Source: Thermoplasmatota archaeon
Lineage (GTDB): Archaea > Thermoplasmatota > Thermoplasmata > UBA10834
DNA length: 64,000 nt
Assembly (NCBI GenBank): GCA_018818785.1
Contig: JAHIRF010000002.1
Span: forward strand, 124,001-188,000
Reading direction: 5' to 3'
In this document: piece after piece, positions 32,303-40,101 of the stretch
Numbering within the stretch: position 1 is the stretch's first letter
How the letters are laid out: the number at the start of each line of letters is the position of its first letter
Program-made: the position numbers and the translations under genes
The notes under the pieces: generated by a model
The model's database searches: none
Seen by the model: only the letters and a program-made list of their open reading frames with translations
Told to the model about the DNA's origin: nothing

Positions 32303-32374
32303 GGGCCCTTAGATCAGTGGAAGATCGCTTCCTTCGCAAGGAAGAGGTCGTGGGTTCAAATCCCACAGGGTCCA
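32303..32374 (+). tRNA. tRNA-Ala (anticodon CGC)
   Basis: All arms pair: acceptor GGGCCCT/AGGGTCC, D stem GATC/GATC, anticodon stem CTTCC/GGAAG with loop TTCGCAA (anticodon CGC), T stem GTGGG/CCCAC with loop TTCAAAT, and discriminator A. CCA is not encoded. The 3' end is the attachment site of an integrated element, and the tRNA remains intact because the element supplies no change before base 32374. Confidence 0.96.
32363..32374 (+). repeat. attL: tRNA-Ala 3' end shared with attR
   Basis: CCACAGGGTCCA, the end of the T stem, the acceptor 3' strand and the discriminator. It is repeated exactly at 39865-39876 and 41692-41703. Confidence 0.85.
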
Positions 32375-33569
32375 TTCTAAGCCTGACTGGCCAATTTTCA
32401 ATCAGCCGGAATTGATTTCTCCCCTGTCCCAACAAACTCCTTCATCTTCTTTCTCTTCCGAAGCCTCCCGGGACCATGAAGATTATCGAATCTTTCAGTA
32501 TGTCAACGACTTCGAGGAGGTCAGGCTCAAGCTAGTAAAGGGCAAATTAGACCTGAACCTGCCTGAGGACCGGGATCTATGCATAAAACTCTATCAGAAA
32601 TGGGTCACAGACGACAATTACATGGTTCTGAGAAAAATCGACCCTCGTGGACCAATCGAGTATCAGGTATGCAAGGCTCGCAAGCGTGGAAACGATGTAG
32701 ACGCATACAGGATCCATCGACAGCTTCGCATCATAAAGGACTCAATCGTCGAATATGCTCAAAGCAATCAACGCCTGAGGGCTACTAGGGCCGTCCATGT
32801 GACGGGCACGATTGACCCTAGATTGGTCGATAATGATCTCGAATACGCTTGGCAGTACCTTGGATACTGGTTCAATATGTTCCTGGCAAGCCTGAGAAAG
32901 CGATGTGTCAGAAACATCACGCTCAAGGAAGAGAAGGAAAAAGCCAAGGAACTCAAGATTCGAGTATATCGGTCCTGGGAGTCCCATGGATCGGGATGGC
33001 CCCATTTCCATGCTATTCTATGTTTTGAGGGATACTCCTGGACAATCTTCCAAGATTCAAAGTCGAGGTGGCGACTCAATGACAAGGACACATTCCAAGA
33101 TGCTTGGAGCTTCGGATGGATAGATGTAGTAGCCCTCACCCCTGGCACGACTAACAAGAATGTCGAGAAGGTCGTATCGTATGTCAGCAAGTATGTGGGC
33201 AAAGGGGCCACTGAGATGGATTATCGTCATGTGGAATCCTGGCCTCGAAAGAGACTCCTGACCGAATCGCTTTTATGGTACTTTGGCAAAAGGTCATATT
33301 CGATCAGTCGTGGGCTATTGGAGGGACATGACCACCCTAACGACTTGAAAAAACGTATAAGCACAATTCAAACGAACATAGAAGGAGAATGCGTCCCAGA
33401 GCTTGAAATTGTGTGGGAATTCATTGGAATGGTGCGCGGAAAAGACACCGAATTGGATGGCTACACCTGGGTCAAGACGTATACGGATCCACCTGATTGG
33501 CTAGACCTATGCTGGAAACCTTGTCGTAGCTACGTGGGAACATGTTGGATGAATACTTGGGGGAGTTGA
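32364..33569 (+). CDS. rep: Rolling-circle replication initiator (HUH Rep), start cut off by integration
   Basis: The frame is open from the tRNA 3' end to 33569. From the TTG at 32412 it encodes 385 residues. Motif 2 is WPHFHAIL (H198, H200), the metal-binding HUH pair. Motif 3 is SYVSKYVGKG, with Y257 and Y261 as candidate nicking tyrosines and K260 between them, as in archaeal and phage RCR Reps. VHVTGTID is a likely motif 1. No ATG, GTG or ribosome site precedes the domain here. In the excised circle the frame would join ATG AGG AGC at 39857, giving MRSHRVHSKPDW and about 404 residues, overlapping the integrase stop as ATGA. In the integrated state the gene is probably silent or starts weakly at TTG 32412. 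Confidence 0.85.
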   Translation, partial: HRVHSKPDWPIFNQPELISPLSQQTPSSSFSSEASRDHEDYRIFQYVNDFEEVRLKLVKGKLDLNLPEDRDLCIKLYQKWVTDDNYMVLRKIDPRGPIEYQVCKARKRGNDVDAYRIHRQLRIIKDSIVEYAQSNQRLRATRAVHVTGTIDPRLVDNDLEYAWQYLGYWFNMFLASLRKRCVRNITLKEEKEKAKELKIRVYRSWESHGSGWPHFHAILCFEGYSWTIFQDSKSRWRLNDKDTFQDAWSFGWIDVVALTPGTTNKNVEKVVSYVSKYVGKGATEMDYRHVESWPRKRLLTESLLWYFGKRSYSISRGLLEGHDHPNDLKKRISTIQTNIEGECVPELEIVWEFIGMVRGKDTELDGYTWVKTYTDPPDWLDLCWKPCRSYVGTCWMNTWGS

Positions 33570-33570
33570 G

Positions 33571-33780
33571 ATGTTCGTTTGCGACGGATGTCAACATGAA
33601 TTCGATTTTCTAATGATTATCTGTGGCCTAGCGTTGTGCAATGAATGTCTTAAACCGTACGATGACGCATTATCGGAATGTCAATCGCATAAAGAATTGG
33701 ACATTGTGGGTCGACGGATACGTTCGGATATTCTGTCTTTTCGAAAAGGGGAGAGAGTCAATAAGTGTTTTAGAGAGTAG
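33571..33780 (+). CDS. Small zinc-finger protein of the element
   Basis: A 69-residue protein with CDGCQHEFDF and CGLALCNEC, a two-cysteine-pair zinc site, followed by a charged helix. The ATG comes one base after the rep stop, so it is likely translated with rep. It may be a replication or copy-control accessory protein, which is a guess from position. Confidence 0.6.
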   Translation: MFVCDGCQHEFDFLMIICGLALCNECLKPYDDALSECQSHKELDIVGRRIRSDILSFRKGERVNKCFRE

Positions 33781-33799
33781 TGGTCGGAGGTCGTCAGTC

Positions 33800-34555
33800 T
33801 CATGATTCGTTATGCTTTTCGCAAGTGATAGTTCTTGTATTGATTTCCTTGAGCAGTTCTTTGACTCCAGGCAATTTCGTCAGAGAGCGTTGCCATCGGT
33901 CGAATGATTCAGTATAGAATTCAATGACAAAACCTTCGGAGAAGACAAGCAAAGTACGGTCTGGACGATTGAGGAATGCGAGTTCTAGATTCTTAGGCTT
34001 GATCTCGTCTTCGAATTTCCACTCGTACTTTTGATTCTTGCTTACCCTTTTGTCCTTGCGGTTGATGAATTCGTCGATTTCGAAGGTGAGATTATCTGGA
34101 TCTTCTTGATTCAGTAGCGGCATTATTGCGTCTCTCAATGGTCCGCTTTTCAGAACCATGGCTTTTCTATGCTTCGGAGGGTGGATGAATCGAGATAAGG
34201 ATTTCTTGAAGTAGAGATTCATTCTTTCCATGTCTTTCTTGTTATTGACTGATGTGATCTTTGGCGGAGGAGAACCCGGCCTCGAAAGGAGAATCATGAA
34301 AGAGTTCAGAAACTCTTCAATCGTGATGAGTCTGTAATATTTATGAGCTTTTTCTCGGTCTGGTTCTCTTTCGTCAGTGAGGTGGGGTTCGAATCCAAGC
34401 GACTTCTGAACCAGACCCAGATGGACAGATGGGTCAATACTTGCGTGTGCCTTCACAATTGTTTCGTATTCGTTGATTTGTTTTGATACAATTTTGAGAA
34501 TTGCGATTCCTTCAGCTGAAATCGTCATCTTCTTCTTGATGTGCTTCTTGCTCAT
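33800..34555 (-). CDS. Hypothetical element protein
   Basis: About 251 residues from MSKKHIKKKMTISAEG. The first 60 residues look helical and basic and may hold a helix-turn-helix (ISAEGIAILKIVSKQI). The rest is mixed and contains YYRLITIEEFLNSFMILL. The start at 34555 is chosen because CTTTATAT lies 27 bases upstream, giving a leaderless message. The frame is open another 35 codons upstream. No family is recognised. Confidence 0.6.
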   Translation of the reverse strand: MSKKHIKKKMTISAEGIAILKIVSKQINEYETIVKAHASIDPSVHLGLVQKSLGFEPHLTDEREPDREKAHKYYRLITIEEFLNSFMILLSRPGSPPPKITSVNNKKDMERMNLYFKKSLSRFIHPPKHRKAMVLKSGPLRDAIMPLLNQEDPDNLTFEIDEFINRKDKRVSKNQKYEWKFEDEIKPKNLELAFLNRPDRTLLVFSEGFVIEFYTESFDRWQRSLTKLPGVKELLKEINTRTITCEKHNES

Positions 34556-34577
34556 CCTTTCGGAATAATATTGCTTT

Positions 34578-34586
34578 GATATAAAG
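34578..34586 (-). promoter_or_regulatory. TATA box for the hypothetical gene at 33800-34555
   Basis: CTTTATATC on the minus strand, centred about 27 bases before the ATG. It implies a leaderless message. Confidence 0.5.
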
Positions 34587-34850
34587 CGTGAGAGGTATGG
34601 ATCGAATGCTGTTGCTTGTGAGGATAGAATAATGCCTTTAGGCTGCCGAAACCGAATCAAGAGGGGGTATGAGCGCAGTTGCGTTAGAGGCGTTCTAGAG
34701 GGGGCTTGGAAGAGGTCAGATGAAGAGGGAGGGAACAGAAGAAGACTGGTAATGAGAGTTGGCTCTTAGCCTGGTGGCAGGACTGAATGGGGATTCCCCG
34801 GAAGCCTTTATGTAGCGAGTTGACGGTCAGAGAAGACAAGGGGTGGAATT

Positions 34851-35141
34851 GTGAATAGCAGTGAACCCGATTCAGATCAGGGAGAACCAACCTGGTTCAA
34901 GACATGGTGGGAGAGGGAGGAGAAACGTCGCTCGAGACGCGAGCTGACTGAAGGCGGTTTTGGCATATTCACCATCGGTCTCGGAGGCATCGCAGTCGGT
35001 CTGGGATTGGCCGCACTTGAGGACGCCAATACTGTGGCGGTTGCCCAAGTCCTCTTGGTCAGCATGTTCGCCATGATTGTGGGGATGGTGATAGCTATGG
35101 CCAGTCTGTTCGGTTACAGGCGGAAAAGGGGTCCCAAATGA
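34851..35141 (+). CDS. Small membrane protein of the element (two helices)
   Basis: A 96-residue protein with a GTG start after a GGGGTGG ribosome site. The N-terminal 38 residues are charged with many Trp, Arg and Glu. Two hydrophobic helices follow (about 38-60 and 65-88) and then a basic tail RRKRGPK. It overlaps the next small gene as ATGA. The arrangement recalls structural or lysis proteins of small archaeal viruses, but no homology is claimed. Confidence 0.6.
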   Translation: MNSSEPDSDQGEPTWFKTWWEREEKRRSRRELTEGGFGIFTIGLGGIAVGLGLAALEDANTVAVAQVLLVSMFAMIVGMVIAMASLFGYRRKRGPK

Positions 35142-35308
35142 CGAATTTTCTGGAGGGACTTGTTGGCTTATCTGTTGGTTTGGTGCTTTCCGCGATTATA
35201 GCAAATGCTCTATGGACGATACAGCCAATTGGTACAGTGCTGATTGGTGTCATAGATGTCGTGGCCGTCGTCGCATACGTCAAGGGATTGGCGGGTGGCA
35301 GAGGATAG
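35138..35308 (+). CDS. Second small membrane protein of the element (56 residues)
   Basis: It begins MTNFLEGLVGLSVGLVLSAI and continues with a second hydrophobic stretch (GTVLIGVIDVVAVVAYV), ending in GGRG before TAG. The ATG overlaps the previous stop as ATGA, so the pair is translated together. It has two predicted helices and almost no soluble part. Confidence 0.6.
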   Translation: MTNFLEGLVGLSVGLVLSAIIANALWTIQPIGTVLIGVIDVVAVVAYVKGLAGGRG

Positions 35309-35366
35309 AGTCCGGTTCTAATCTGACTGGGAGAAGACCATAGAGTGGAAATGTGCCACTCGAGCA

Positions 35367-35918
35367 TTAGTAGAGTTTGCCTCGCTCATATCTGAACGAA
35401 GCGTGCTCATGCTTCTTGTCTCGTAACACTGATCTGAACAGGCTAGGGTACTCGATTTCCTCAAGAGGTAGGCAATAGACTTCGTCTGGCATTGACGGCT
35501 CTCCCCCTAGGCCCAGAACCATAAACACAGTCTCTGGACATACTCCCTTCTGAAAGCTGCGATACGCTTCCAGGCGGTCCTGTTCACATATCTTGAACTT
35601 GTCATCATAGAGTCTGGCTCTCCATTTCGCTTCGACCCAGAACTTGTCCCTGCTCCTTCGGTCCTTTATGTAGAGGTCCGGCTTTCTGCTGCCTTCGGGA
35701 TCATCCCTCTGCTTGATTTCGAAATCGCGATTCGGAAACATGTTTTCCACGAACGCTTCGAAATCCTTGCCTTTCGCATACTGGACAGGATCATAGTTTC
35801 GCTTCAATTGAACCAATCCCGGACATTGATGACAAGGAGACCAGATAGTTGTTTCGGAAGGTCCCGCCTGGGTCTCCAGGCTTTTTTGCTCAGAAAAGCC
35901 CAGAGAGAGGAGACACAA
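35367..35918 (-). CDS. PD-(D/E)XK-like nuclease 1
   Basis: Up to 183 residues (TTG start at 35918; the true start may be up to 38 codons later, near LVQLKRNYD). The restriction-endonuclease-like core is clear: E54 in KDFEAFVENM, D81 in KPDLYI, and E96-x-K98 in FWVEAKWR. Stand-alone proteins of this kind act as restriction, repair or mobile-element nucleases. It is divergent from the second nuclease-like gene 120 bases away. Confidence 0.7.
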   Translation of the reverse strand: MCLLSLGFSEQKSLETQAGPSETTIWSPCHQCPGLVQLKRNYDPVQYAKGKDFEAFVENMFPNRDFEIKQRDDPEGSRKPDLYIKDRRSRDKFWVEAKWRARLYDDKFKICEQDRLEAYRSFQKGVCPETVFMVLGLGGEPSMPDEVYCLPLEEIEYPSLFRSVLRDKKHEHASFRYERGKLY

Positions 35919-36039
35919 TCAGGATTACGTTGTCTGCGTACCTCAATCCAAAAAGCATAATTCTCATTGATTACCAGCCAAGCACCCGTATTCTGAGGGG
36001 AGATGCTTGGCTTATGGTGGCAAAGGAACTAATCGGAGT

Positions 36040-37032
36040 ATGACAATTAGGTGCCTATATGTTGGTTTGCCAACAGGGAGGTTGACAGATACGGAGAGCG
36101 AATCGGAGACTAGAAGTCACAACAAGAAGGTTGATAGCATCAACAAATCAGGCTATGGTTTCCAGAGAAAGATTGCACTTGAGATCTCTAGCACCGAGAA
36201 ATGGGATGTTGAGATTGAGAAGCCCCTCGTAAGATTCGAAGAAAGGTCGGTGGAAGAGGTCAAGGTTGACATCTTAGCTCGCTCCAGACGGAAGTTCAGC
36301 GATATGCCTAGAGCAGTTTCTGTGATTGAATGCAAGAGACATGATCCCAAGTATTCAGAATGGCTCTTCTTCTCTCGAGGCAGCAATCTTGGAGAGATTG
36401 AAGGTCGAGAGAAATTCCCATCAGTTTGGTGTCACCTCACCGGTGGCAGTTATTCCTTCGATAACAAACATCACAAGACGGGTAGAATGGGGATGTACGA
36501 GGGTTATTTCCCAAGTCTGGCTGAATGGGCTGATATCAAATACAGTGATTCTTTTGGGGTTCCGACGAGGCGCGATGGTACGATTGGTGCCGCAGACTCA
36601 GGAGTGATTCAGCATGCTGCTAACCAGGTGGCTCGGGGAGTGCTCGGCGCTGTTCATAGCCTCCACGAATACCGAAACTCGCGGAGGAAAGAGCGATTTC
36701 TTCCTCTTACGGGGAATCATCTAGTCCTTCCAGTCCTTGTCACAACTGCTCCAATTTACGTGTGCCATGTTGATGATGCAGCCACGGACTTACTGCAGGG
36801 CAGTATTCCTCCCGACGGTCTAGAGACTGAATCGAAGAAGTGTCTGCTATTCAGATATTCGCTCCCTATAGGTCTTTGGTTCCCACCTGATACGCTCGCA
36901 GGAGACGGATTGCCGGACCTGACGTCACTCTCCGTATGGGTAGTCAGTTCATCATTCTGCAAAGAGTTCTTTTCGCTCGTTGACAAAGACGCTGCTCATT
37001 GGCAAGAAATGGCTCCGATTCAGGGACAGTGA
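36040..37032 (+). CDS. PD-(D/E)XK-like nuclease 2
   Basis: About 330 residues. After a polar N-terminus come GYGFQRKIALEIS (E48), D77 in KVDILAR and E97-C-K99 in VSVIECKRHD, the catalytic pattern of the fold. The C-terminal 200 residues are of unknown type and contain an HAANQVARGVLGAVHSLHEYR helix. The ATG at 36040 follows CGGAG; an upstream TTG (36007) is less likely. It converges on the third nuclease-like gene. Confidence 0.65.
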   Translation: MTIRCLYVGLPTGRLTDTESESETRSHNKKVDSINKSGYGFQRKIALEISSTEKWDVEIEKPLVRFEERSVEEVKVDILARSRRKFSDMPRAVSVIECKRHDPKYSEWLFFSRGSNLGEIEGREKFPSVWCHLTGGSYSFDNKHHKTGRMGMYEGYFPSLAEWADIKYSDSFGVPTRRDGTIGAADSGVIQHAANQVARGVLGAVHSLHEYRNSRRKERFLPLTGNHLVLPVLVTTAPIYVCHVDDAATDLLQGSIPPDGLETESKKCLLFRYSLPIGLWFPPDTLAGDGLPDLTSLSVWVVSSSFCKEFFSLVDKDAAHWQEMAPIQGQ

Positions 37033-37044
37033 TACAGGAAGAAT

Positions 37045-38373
37045 TCATTCTTCTGAAATGATGTCTCTGAAGTCCTCGAATGTCTCTGGATAGAAGACCT
37101 CGATGTCACACGGGATTTCAGAGAATTCCTTTAATGACAGAATATTGTCGACGACGGATGCTCCAACGCACTGGGGGATATTCGTTACAAGGTATGCGCT
37201 GCTAACGTGAATATCGGCCTTGTCATAGGTCCTCCAATGATTGGAAAGCTGGTTGAGATCTTCACGGATTTGCGATTCCAGGGTTCGTCCAGGTGAGTCG
37301 AGATGGTGAACCTTAGATTCGACGATTCCAATTTCGTTCTCATCCTCCATTTGAAATACCGCGTCCTTCTCGGTGTCATCGGCCAGTCCTTCCACATATA
37401 CACCAGGTGCCCAGCTGCGGCCGCTTTCTCGGAGGCTCCAGTGTACCGTGGTGCCCAGCAAACCGTCGCGGGCATCCAGCAATTTGGCAAGTGGCGATTT
37501 TGGGTAGTAGAATGTACCCACAGCCATTTCGGACTTGCAGACTGGGCAGGTCGAGACCGGAGGGTCCTGGCTAGCTACCGCAAAGTACGATTGAGGATGT
37601 TTCCTGCATTGAGTGCACCAAACTAGCGATGTCGCCGGGGACAAGAGACAGAAGCGGTCGGCAAGCTGTTTTAGTGTGCGGTGATATTCTTCATAGCTCT
37701 GTCTGGAGGACACAAGGAGATTTTCTAGGTGCTTCCGGCCGAATTGCAGCGCACCATATTTCCATATTGAAAAAATGCTAGCTAGGGCAGGAACCACCAA
37801 ATCTCCGGCTCTGCTCGTGATTGTGTTTACGACTTTTCTTAGCCCATCTTCACTGTACATCTGAATGATTCTGTTTGTTACCTCTCTGGTGACGATCTCC
37901 GTCCTGATCTCTTCCTCTCGTTCAGTTTCAAGTGATGGAAGCTTCGCGGTCGTTTCCTGAAACTGCTCTTCAAAACCCGCGAGAATATCAGGTAGGATTG
38001 GAAGAAACCTATTCAAGGCGTCGTATACATGGACTCGGAGCTCGGCGTCAGACTTGCTTGCTTCGTAGGCCAATGGATCGTGGTCACGGAAGGGCATGCT
38101 TTCATCATAAAAGATGGGGAGAACAACTCCCTTGAATGGCATGTAGTCATGCCTGTGGCGCCAGAGAAACTTGCGAATGTCCTCCTCCGTCGCGACCGCG
38201 TCAAAAAGCTGTGTAAGTTCTGGGACCGATTGAATGGTCTTCAACGAATTCAGCTGGTCTGAATCACACTTCAGCTTCCTTTTGGAGCCGTCCCTGAGGG
38301 TGACCGTTTCAAGAATGTTCATTAGGTCATGGTCATCGATTTTCACAGCCCTCGGATGGGGTCTACATGCCAT
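37045..38373 (-). CDS. Zinc-ribbon protein with C-terminal PD-(D/E)XK-like domain (nuclease 3)
   Basis: A 442-residue protein. The first 230 residues are mostly helical and contain an acidic stretch. A zinc ribbon follows (WCTQCRKH...CPVCKSEM, about 255-285). The last 110 residues carry D337, then EIGIVESKV (E352-S-K354), compatible with a restriction-endonuclease-like core. It may recognise DNA or RNA through the ribbon. A near-palindrome at 38401-38420 lies just upstream of the start. The nuclease assignment is less certain than for the other two. Confidence 0.55.
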   Translation of the reverse strand: MACRPHPRAVKIDDHDLMNILETVTLRDGSKRKLKCDSDQLNSLKTIQSVPELTQLFDAVATEEDIRKFLWRHRHDYMPFKGVVLPIFYDESMPFRDHDPLAYEASKSDAELRVHVYDALNRFLPILPDILAGFEEQFQETTAKLPSLETEREEEIRTEIVTREVTNRIIQMYSEDGLRKVVNTITSRAGDLVVPALASIFSIWKYGALQFGRKHLENLLVSSRQSYEEYHRTLKQLADRFCLLSPATSLVWCTQCRKHPQSYFAVASQDPPVSTCPVCKSEMAVGTFYYPKSPLAKLLDARDGLLGTTVHWSLRESGRSWAPGVYVEGLADDTEKDAVFQMEDENEIGIVESKVHHLDSPGRTLESQIREDLNQLSNHWRTYDKADIHVSSAYLVTNIPQCVGASVVDNILSLKEFSEIPCDIEVFYPETFEDFRDIISEE

Positions 38374-38400
38374 AAACCTTCAGGTCCGGTATTAGGTCTA

Positions 38401-38420
38401 CTACAGACTATAGACTGTAG
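38401..38420. promoter_or_regulatory. Operator-like inverted repeat between nuclease 3 and the integrase
   Basis: CTACAG and CTGTAG flank the eight bases ACTATAGA, which also contain a direct AGACT repeat. It sits about 28 bases before the nuclease-3 start and in the gap from which the integrase is transcribed, so a regulator bound here could affect both. Confidence 0.4.
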
Positions 38421-38555
38421 AAAGTAGTCAGTTATCTTACTGGCCTTGGGGCGAACCGCAAGATACAAATGCACGAAGTCTGTTAAGATTTATGGATCGT
38501 GTAACCTGGAATTTTGGCTTTGGTCTGATTCCTTTCGCGGCCTAGTGGCCCTCTG

Positions 38556-39860
38556 TTGTATTTAATTTTGATATTGTTGATCCAGCCAGCACGACTAGGT
38601 TGCGAAAGATTGATCAACAAAGGAGACGAAGAATCGTCGTGGGCGGGCAGTTGGCGCTTGAGAGAAAACGTTAACTCCCTAGATAGTGATGTAACGAGCG
38701 GTCCTGAGGATGGGACAACTCAGGACCGCAAGGGATACAATGAACCCGGTCGTGAACCCAGATCGGGGCAGGGGAGACGGAAGAGCTCGACGCATAGAAG
38801 AAGGAAGCCAGGAAGGGAGCGTGGTCCGAGGTCAAATGGCCCTTATCCGTTCCTGACTGAGCTTAAGGTCTATCTGAAGGACGTGGAGCATGCACATGCG
38901 GAATCCACACTGACAGACATGGCAAGGAAGCTGCGGCATATCCATGATGTTCTCAAGGAGCTGAAATCGAAGGGACTTGTACAGACTACAAGTCCCCGAA
39001 AGATGGGAGAACAAGAGATCTTTGCATTTGTTGCATGGATGAACGCCAAGGATGGCCTGCGTTCAAGGCCTTTGGGCGAAGCCACTCAGAAGAAGACGCT
39101 TCACCAGTTGAAGAGCTTCCTGGCGCATCTCGACAATGGCGTAATCGACAGAATGCTGAAGAAGAAGCAGCTGAGGATGCCGCGAGAACGGAATGTTCCT
39201 CGTGAATCGTTTGAGGCGGATGAGCTTGCCCAGATTATGACGAGTCTCAAAGAGGCGGCTGCCAAGGGGTCAATGAATGCCTTCGGCGTGTTTGGCCATG
39301 CTCTGTTCTGCGGATATGCGGGCACGAGACTCAAGGAGGTCAGGCTAGCTCAGAGAGGCGACTACTTGGCCAAGTTCTATGAATTGACCGTGCTTCATCC
39401 AAAGGGCGAGAAGTCCTGGGGAGATCCACGAATAGCACAAATCTGCCCTCCTGGGAGGCCGTTCGCCGACGATTTCATGGCTATGCGCGACCGAGAGCTA
39501 AGGAAGTCCGACATCCTTGACAGCAAGGCGATCCCATTGGTGCCTAGAGTCATAGGAGGCAGAGTCGAACGCTGGCCAGATTCGGTCCTTCATAACGTGA
39601 AGTGCGAGGTCGAGCGTGACCGTATGCTGCAGTTCGACTTTCGCAAGCTGAGAAGAACTTACGGCCAGAACGCTTTAGATGCCGGTACGCCAATGGACTT
39701 CGTGAGTGGAGCTCTAGGTCACGCACACGTGGCGACGACTCAAAGGTCCTACGTCCGTCTGAAAAGCAGTAGAGTCTTTGCGGAGATAGACCGTGCCTAT
39801 GCGAATGCGTCTGTAAATTCAATCCCCGTTGATTGCGATAAGGCCAGGTGTTCGAAATGA
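38556..39860 (+). CDS. int: Tyrosine recombinase (element integrase)
   Basis: Up to 434 residues. The core-binding helices lie around residues 95-210. The catalytic set is R258 (GYAGTRLKEV), K283 or K286 (HPKGEKSW), K364-L-R-R367 in place of HxxR, H389 (GALGHAH) and Y399 (TQRSYVRL). The N-terminal 90 residues are low-complexity and basic. The first TTG overlaps a TATA-like TATTTAATTTT (38559-38569), so the true start is more likely a TTG near 38610. The stop TGA overlaps an ATG that becomes the rep start when attL and attR recombine. Confidence 0.88.
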   Translation: MYLILILLIQPARLGCERLINKGDEESSWAGSWRLRENVNSLDSDVTSGPEDGTTQDRKGYNEPGREPRSGQGRRKSSTHRRRKPGRERGPRSNGPYPFLTELKVYLKDVEHAHAESTLTDMARKLRHIHDVLKELKSKGLVQTTSPRKMGEQEIFAFVAWMNAKDGLRSRPLGEATQKKTLHQLKSFLAHLDNGVIDRMLKKKQLRMPRERNVPRESFEADELAQIMTSLKEAAAKGSMNAFGVFGHALFCGYAGTRLKEVRLAQRGDYLAKFYELTVLHPKGEKSWGDPRIAQICPPGRPFADDFMAMRDRELRKSDILDSKAIPLVPRVIGGRVERWPDSVLHNVKCEVERDRMLQFDFRKLRRTYGQNALDAGTPMDFVSGALGHAHVATTQRSYVRLKSSRVFAEIDRAYANASVNSIPVDCDKARCSK

Positions 39861-39876
39861 GGAGCCACAGGGTCCA
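39857..39876 (+). repeat. attR with the lost rep start codon
   Basis: ATGAGGAGCCACAGGGTCCA. The last 12 bases equal attL. The ATG overlaps the integrase stop and is in frame with rep across the recombined junction. In the integrated state this short frame ends after nine codons. Confidence 0.8.
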
Positions 39877-39882
39877 CCATCC

Positions 39883-40101
39883 ATGAGAAAAGGACATAAG
39901 GGCGGACTACCAGGGAAAGATTCTTGTGCTGAAGAGAACGATTGCAGCAAGGGAGTCGACTTGAATTCTGATTCAGAGAGACCCGTCAAGGCCAATGCTC
40001 CTGTCCGAATTCCCCGGATACTGCTCATGATTGGCAGTATTGGGGTGATCCGAGGGGTTCTAGCATGCATCAGGCGTGTAGGAAGAAGAAAAGGAGTTTA
40101 G
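39883..40101 (+). CDS. Possible small protein downstream of attR
   Basis: A 72-residue frame starting MRKGHKGGLPGKDS with one weakly hydrophobic stretch (IPRILLMIGSIGVIRGVLA) and a basic tail. Its first codons overlap one copy of the GAGAAAAGG repeat, so coding is doubtful. The rest of the 380 bases between integrase and 40241 holds no other gene that I can see. Confidence 0.25.
   Translation: MRKGHKGGLPGKDSCAEENDCSKGVDLNSDSERPVKANAPVRIPRILLMIGSIGVIRGVLACIRRVGRRKGV

Follow-up and report, generated by a model that had tools for sequence, protein, structure and literature searches.

We describe here a 7,502-bp element inserted in the tRNA-Ala(CGC) gene of an uncultivated Thermoplasmatota archaeon. 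As judged from its sequence, this element most likely (with a probability of about 0.78) keeps the ribosome-binding site and the start codon of its own replication initiator at the opposite end when it is integrated, and Rep would be made only from circles. Since the start signal sits at the far end, the rep gene should be readable only after excision and closure of the circle.

The element was analysed within a stretch of 64,000 nucleotides, hereafter called the window. On its left side lies the gene of a rolling-circle Rep and on its right side that of a tyrosine integrase (int), with cargo genes in between (Table 1). Its features are those of a tRNA-targeting tyrosine-recombinase element: an att repeat at the 3' end of the tRNA gene, an integrase and an empty site in a relative. 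In that relative (G015, locus L150), the tRNA gene is directly joined to the sequence found to the right of attR, which supports the ends of the element; the circle would likewise measure 7,502 bp. In this family, purB precedes tRNA-Ala(CGC) at 14 of the 16 loci fetched. Across the family, many different sequences lie 3' of this tRNA gene behind purB (L140-L152), and the site is probably an integration hot spot for several elements. As for the cargo (33800-38373), it comprises ORFs of 286, 183, 341 and 442 amino acids with no family match above the cut-off; the region 35367-35918 is weakly nuclease-like (Mrr), and a scan of the cargo for defence families gave no matches. The small zinc-ribbon-like ORF, one base past the rep stop, is probably co-switched with rep.

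Table 1. Features of the integrated element and of its target gene (positions in the window)
Feature	Position	Strand	Basis or remark
tRNA-Ala(CGC), integration target; 3' end forms attL	32303..32374	+	ARAGORN
attL core CCACAGGGTCCA	32363..32374	+	Exact 12-base repeat of 39865-39876; empty site in L150
rep (rolling-circle initiator) frame, open through attL	32364..33569	+	No ATG from tRNA to conserved domain
Block near-identical in the G014 relative, third positions included, inside rep 5' end	32396..32437	+	Sequence comparison
TTG, sole in-frame NTG between tRNA and rep domain, without Shine-Dalgarno	32412..32414	+	Start scan, duplex energy
Zinc-ribbon-like small ORF, one base past rep stop	33571..33780	+	ORF list; weak Pfam match
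int, tyrosine recombinase, intact	38556..39860	+	ORF list, Pfam; TGA 39858-39860
Shine-Dalgarno-like AGGTG, 6 bases before ATG 39857	39846..39850	+	Sequence; duplex energy -9.1
ATG overlapping int stop (ATGA), proposed rep start in the circle	39857..39859	+	Sequence
9-codon decoy ORF from ATG 39857 in the integrated state	39857..39886	+	Sequence
attR core CCACAGGGTCCA	39865..39876	+	Sequence; copy of last 12 tRNA bases

The original prediction held that rep has no good start after the tRNA gene and is open through the 12-base attL, that attR begins 4 bases after the int stop, and that an ATG overlaps this stop as ATGA. The bases bear out all three points. The rep frame is already open inside the tRNA gene and stays so up to its stop codon at 33569; the sole in-frame candidate start is a TTG devoid of a Shine-Dalgarno sequence (duplex energy of -2.4 vs. 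-9.1 for the ATG at the int end), the start scan after the tRNA using a fixed anchor in the window as in the relatives. A value of -9.1 is reached by 3.5% of random 20-mers; these energies rest on an assumed anti-Shine-Dalgarno sequence, the search for the 16S 3' end having given no match. At the other end, four bases (GGAG) separate the int stop from attR. Joining 39857-39864 to 32363 gives ATG AGG AGC CAC AGG GTC CAT TCT and so on, open to 33569, i.e. a Rep of 404 residues, as had been predicted. The excess at third codon positions is 0.31-0.51 over the first 45 or so codons after the tRNA vs. 0.51-0.72 in the rest of the gene. This weak codon-position bias counts against the reading proposed above: the 5' segment of rep could be an unconstrained linker, could serve as a DNA site or could be coding to a lesser degree than assumed. 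The near-identical block that it contains is a candidate for such a site, either an integrase arm or an origin, and we read the 5' stretch as a linker that may overlap integrase or origin sites.

From the observed anatomy, together with the natural junctions and the frame match presented below, we infer the following mechanism. In the integrated state, rep would lie silent behind the tRNA gene with neither ATG nor Shine-Dalgarno sequence, and translation from the start at the int end would enter the decoy ORF. The integrase, whose gene is intact in this state, would excise the element and thereby rejoin int, the start codon, the att core and rep. The joined int and rep would form one translationally coupled operon, driven by a promoter located inside int or ahead of it, so that Rep would come from circles only. 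Such an arrangement may serve to keep Rep from nicking the host chromosome and firing replication in it, replication being turned on when the element is free. If this is true, integration is tied to initiator translation by geometry alone, a repressor being unnecessary. This would also explain the integrated Rep genes of these archaea that have no plausible start, and would make the real N-termini of Rep predictable from integrated copies.

The switch put forward by the original prediction (no Rep from the integrated element, Rep production after excision) thus stands here as a proposal, with a parallel in the SNJ2 provirus (Betapleolipovirus) of haloarchaea. In SNJ2, experiments have shown that a replication operon containing int is rebuilt only after excision, that replication requires the coding sequence of int, and that circularisation creates, downstream of int, an attP-spanning ORF (orf26) that is both translated and needed (PMC13107129). 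As in SNJ2, int and the replication genes are co-oriented and adjacent across attP in the window element and in two relatives described below (G125 and G372), and the initiator of the window element is of the rolling-circle type. However, the attP-spanning ORF of SNJ2 is orf26 and not the initiator, whereas in the window it is the start codon of rep itself that is severed. Furthermore, the SNJ2 Rep (ORF19) ends an 11-gene operon, whereas int and rep are direct neighbours in the window, and the SNJ2 initiator is a Rep-Arvir (DUF7845, PF25227), a family to which the window Rep had no match at E 0.1.

Other systems offer further likenesses. In the integration-dependent immunity of mycobacteriophage BPs, attP lies inside the repressor gene, and int and the repressor share an operon (PMC4557955); the product of this regulatory gene is altered by integration because the attachment site is inside the gene. 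Integration removes the 3' end of the BPs repressor gene and yields a stable, active form, whereas in the window the 5' end of rep is lost, with predicted silencing. In archaeal suicidal SSV-type integrases (PMC8371274), a gene is likewise interrupted at an att site in a tRNA gene, but there int itself is split, whereas in the window int (38556-39860) is a single open frame and rep is split. The tRNA-integrated mobile elements of Thaumarchaeota are likewise described as integrated archaeal elements with an integrase (PMC6563490). PMC5882170 contained nothing relevant as a precedent for start swapping. Given SNJ2, the principle that excision rebuilds a replication operon is already known. What is new is that the initiator's own start codon is severed, in a different Rep family and recurrently, of which we found no description in the literature searched. 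Together with SNJ2, our data suggest that archaea may repeatedly have met the danger of a rolling-circle origin firing inside the chromosome by severing the replication operon at the att site.

The comparison with SNJ2 also brings in a mainly transcriptional reading of the switch, in which rep would gain a promoter from the int side and the position of its start would follow from the compactness of the int-rep operon and not be the control step itself. The SNJ2 operon transcript begins inside int and the operon exists in the circle only (PMC13107129); moreover, transcription could still be what controls L100, L113, L116 and L118, four related elements in which rep has a start of its own behind the tRNA gene. 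This reading nevertheless leaves unexplained both the many elements lacking a usable start after the tRNA gene and the frame-matched start kept at the int end, and we consider it unlikely.

The severed start of the preferred reading is also seen in relatives. The closest named relative of the window element lies on the MAG contig JAJISI010000006.1 ('Candidatus Thermoplasmatota archaeon'; G014), from another genus of the same family. Its Rep is 72% identical, and its rep gene lies behind the same tRNA gene downstream of purB, again without ATG, with its first codons in the same frame as in the window and the TTG at 32412 kept. Its attR is unseen, since the contig end truncates rep, and this contig yielded no int. 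Another family of the class, f6, is distant but rich in Rep relatives (present in 23-25 of some 100 genomes) and has many tRNA-Tyr elements with the layout of a startless rep. One of these genomes, G125 (locus L031), contains a tandem array at tRNA-Tyr, in the order tRNA-rep1-...-int1-att-rep2-...-int2-att. At its middle junction, the int stop, the start, the core CAAATCAGGGAGTGGGGACCATCC and rep2 make up a single frame of 433 residues: int ends in ...AGATGA, rep starts at that ATG or at the ATG 9 bases on, and the 24-base att core is read through. A second tandem array, in G372 (L098), has a natural junction of the same kind. Relatives with int and rep joined by ATGA, which the original prediction had suggested looking for, thus exist, and the G125 and G372 junctions are the predicted sequences found in nature, not reconstructions.

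These relatives also bear on the idea that the integrated rep is translated after all, from TTG 32412, from another unusual start or as a leaderless gene, in which case there would be no off switch. The conservation of this TTG in G014 is in keeping with it. Yet the TTG has no Shine-Dalgarno sequence, and several tRNA-Tyr elements have no NTG at all ahead of the conserved domain: none over 60 codons in rep1 of G125, directly behind the tRNA gene, and none in L090 and L087 either, over a stretch of at least 60 codons. We regard translation from the integrated copy as highly improbable.

We then considered the reading frame across rebuilt attP junctions. Depending on the subgroup, the 3' end of tRNA-Tyr is read by these elements in one of three frames (KSGSGDH, IREWGP and NQGVGT). 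Of the eight junctions rebuilt from elements with a visible int end, seven (the window, two elements in G125, G342, G215 C48, G357 and G246) provide a start that matches the frame of rep, mostly with a strong Shine-Dalgarno sequence; these counts include related elements and represent about four independent lineages. The two remaining frames of these seven junctions offer no comparable start, save a TTG in L031. In G342 and in element 2 of G125, the int stop sits inside the Shine-Dalgarno sequence (GGAGATGATC), and the weakest Shine-Dalgarno of the matching junctions is that of element 1 of G125 (-6.7). The exception, L091 (G215:C32, core at reverse-complement coordinate 10041), has an int fragment only and a start in the wrong frame; it is a probable hybrid or decayed element. 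In L100, L113 and L116, three related elements in which a Shine-Dalgarno sequence and a start codon for rep lie 3' of the tRNA gene, the int end has no good start in the rep frame. In addition, 13 startless 5' stretches (about 805 codons) contain no stop in the rep frame vs. 25 and 37 in the others, a result that is supportive only, since openness helped to define the class. That the window element is simply decayed, its rep 5' end lost and the in-frame ATG coincidental, is hardly credible: a chance frame fit would occur about one time in three for a single junction alone, but rep and int are intact, two tandem arrays provide natural in-frame junctions and 7/8 of the rebuilt junctions match the frame.

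The window Rep scores 29.0 bits against the Pfam family REP_ORF2-G2P (PF23343; cut-off 27.8) and displays the motifs PHFHA (HUH) and SYVSKYVGK (catalytic tyrosine motif). By score and motifs, it is an HUH-type rolling-circle Rep. The distant Rep of L031, of the tRNA-Tyr type, scores 18.1 against PF23343, under the cut-off. Y315, K318 and Y319 are invariant in A1, and the Reps of the tRNA-Tyr type retain the first His only. Long branches make the deep part of the Rep tree uncertain, but startless elements do not form a single clade in it: they are spread over the tree, with at least 6 changes of state required by well-supported branches. The window pair stands far apart from the tRNA-Tyr group. 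On balance, we lean slightly towards the view that the lock, in which only the circle would have the tRNA 3' end translated as codons, recurs in Thermoplasmatota elements, that it arose more than once and that the frame of the core can change together with the start.

The original prediction had named a free relative whose rep starts elsewhere as evidence against the lock. The sole case is L028 (G046:C5, 1-8679), a complete, virus-like circular contig with a 121-base terminal overlap, which encodes an ATPase, a large WD40-like membrane protein and a distant Rep (about 30% identity) with its own ATG, and no integrase. Very distant and devoid of integrase, it represents another kind of element. 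The collections of viral contigs, plasmids and phages contained no free circular relatives.

Several elements were set apart from the lock class. Five of them (L100, L113, L115, L116 and L118) have their own start and Shine-Dalgarno sequence after the tRNA gene. At the int 3' end of L113 and L116, a strong Shine-Dalgarno and a start lie in a different frame that crosses att, possibly a separate attP-spanning ORF as in SNJ2 orf26. The L092-L104 group has the tRNA gene in the other orientation, and in L092, L093, L101, L102 and L104 a second tyrosine-recombinase-like gene overlaps the end of rep. In G171, G159 and G231, from other families, either rep has a start of its own or no core can be seen. 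The attR of the G114 element was not found.

Two further observations concern the tRNA-Tyr group. In L087 (G342:C3), near position 2531, the left att core is preceded by the end of a triosephosphate-isomerase-like gene and not by a tRNA gene, an unusual context that would reflect an unusual insertion or a rearrangement. Finally, the first 75 bases past the att core of L089, L091, L095 and L098 contain paired direct repeats (ACGAGTACCA and variants). Such pairs, present in part of the group, are made of repeats of 10-14 bases, exactly 27 bases apart; as they lie inside the 5' end of rep, they are candidate integrase-arm or origin sites.
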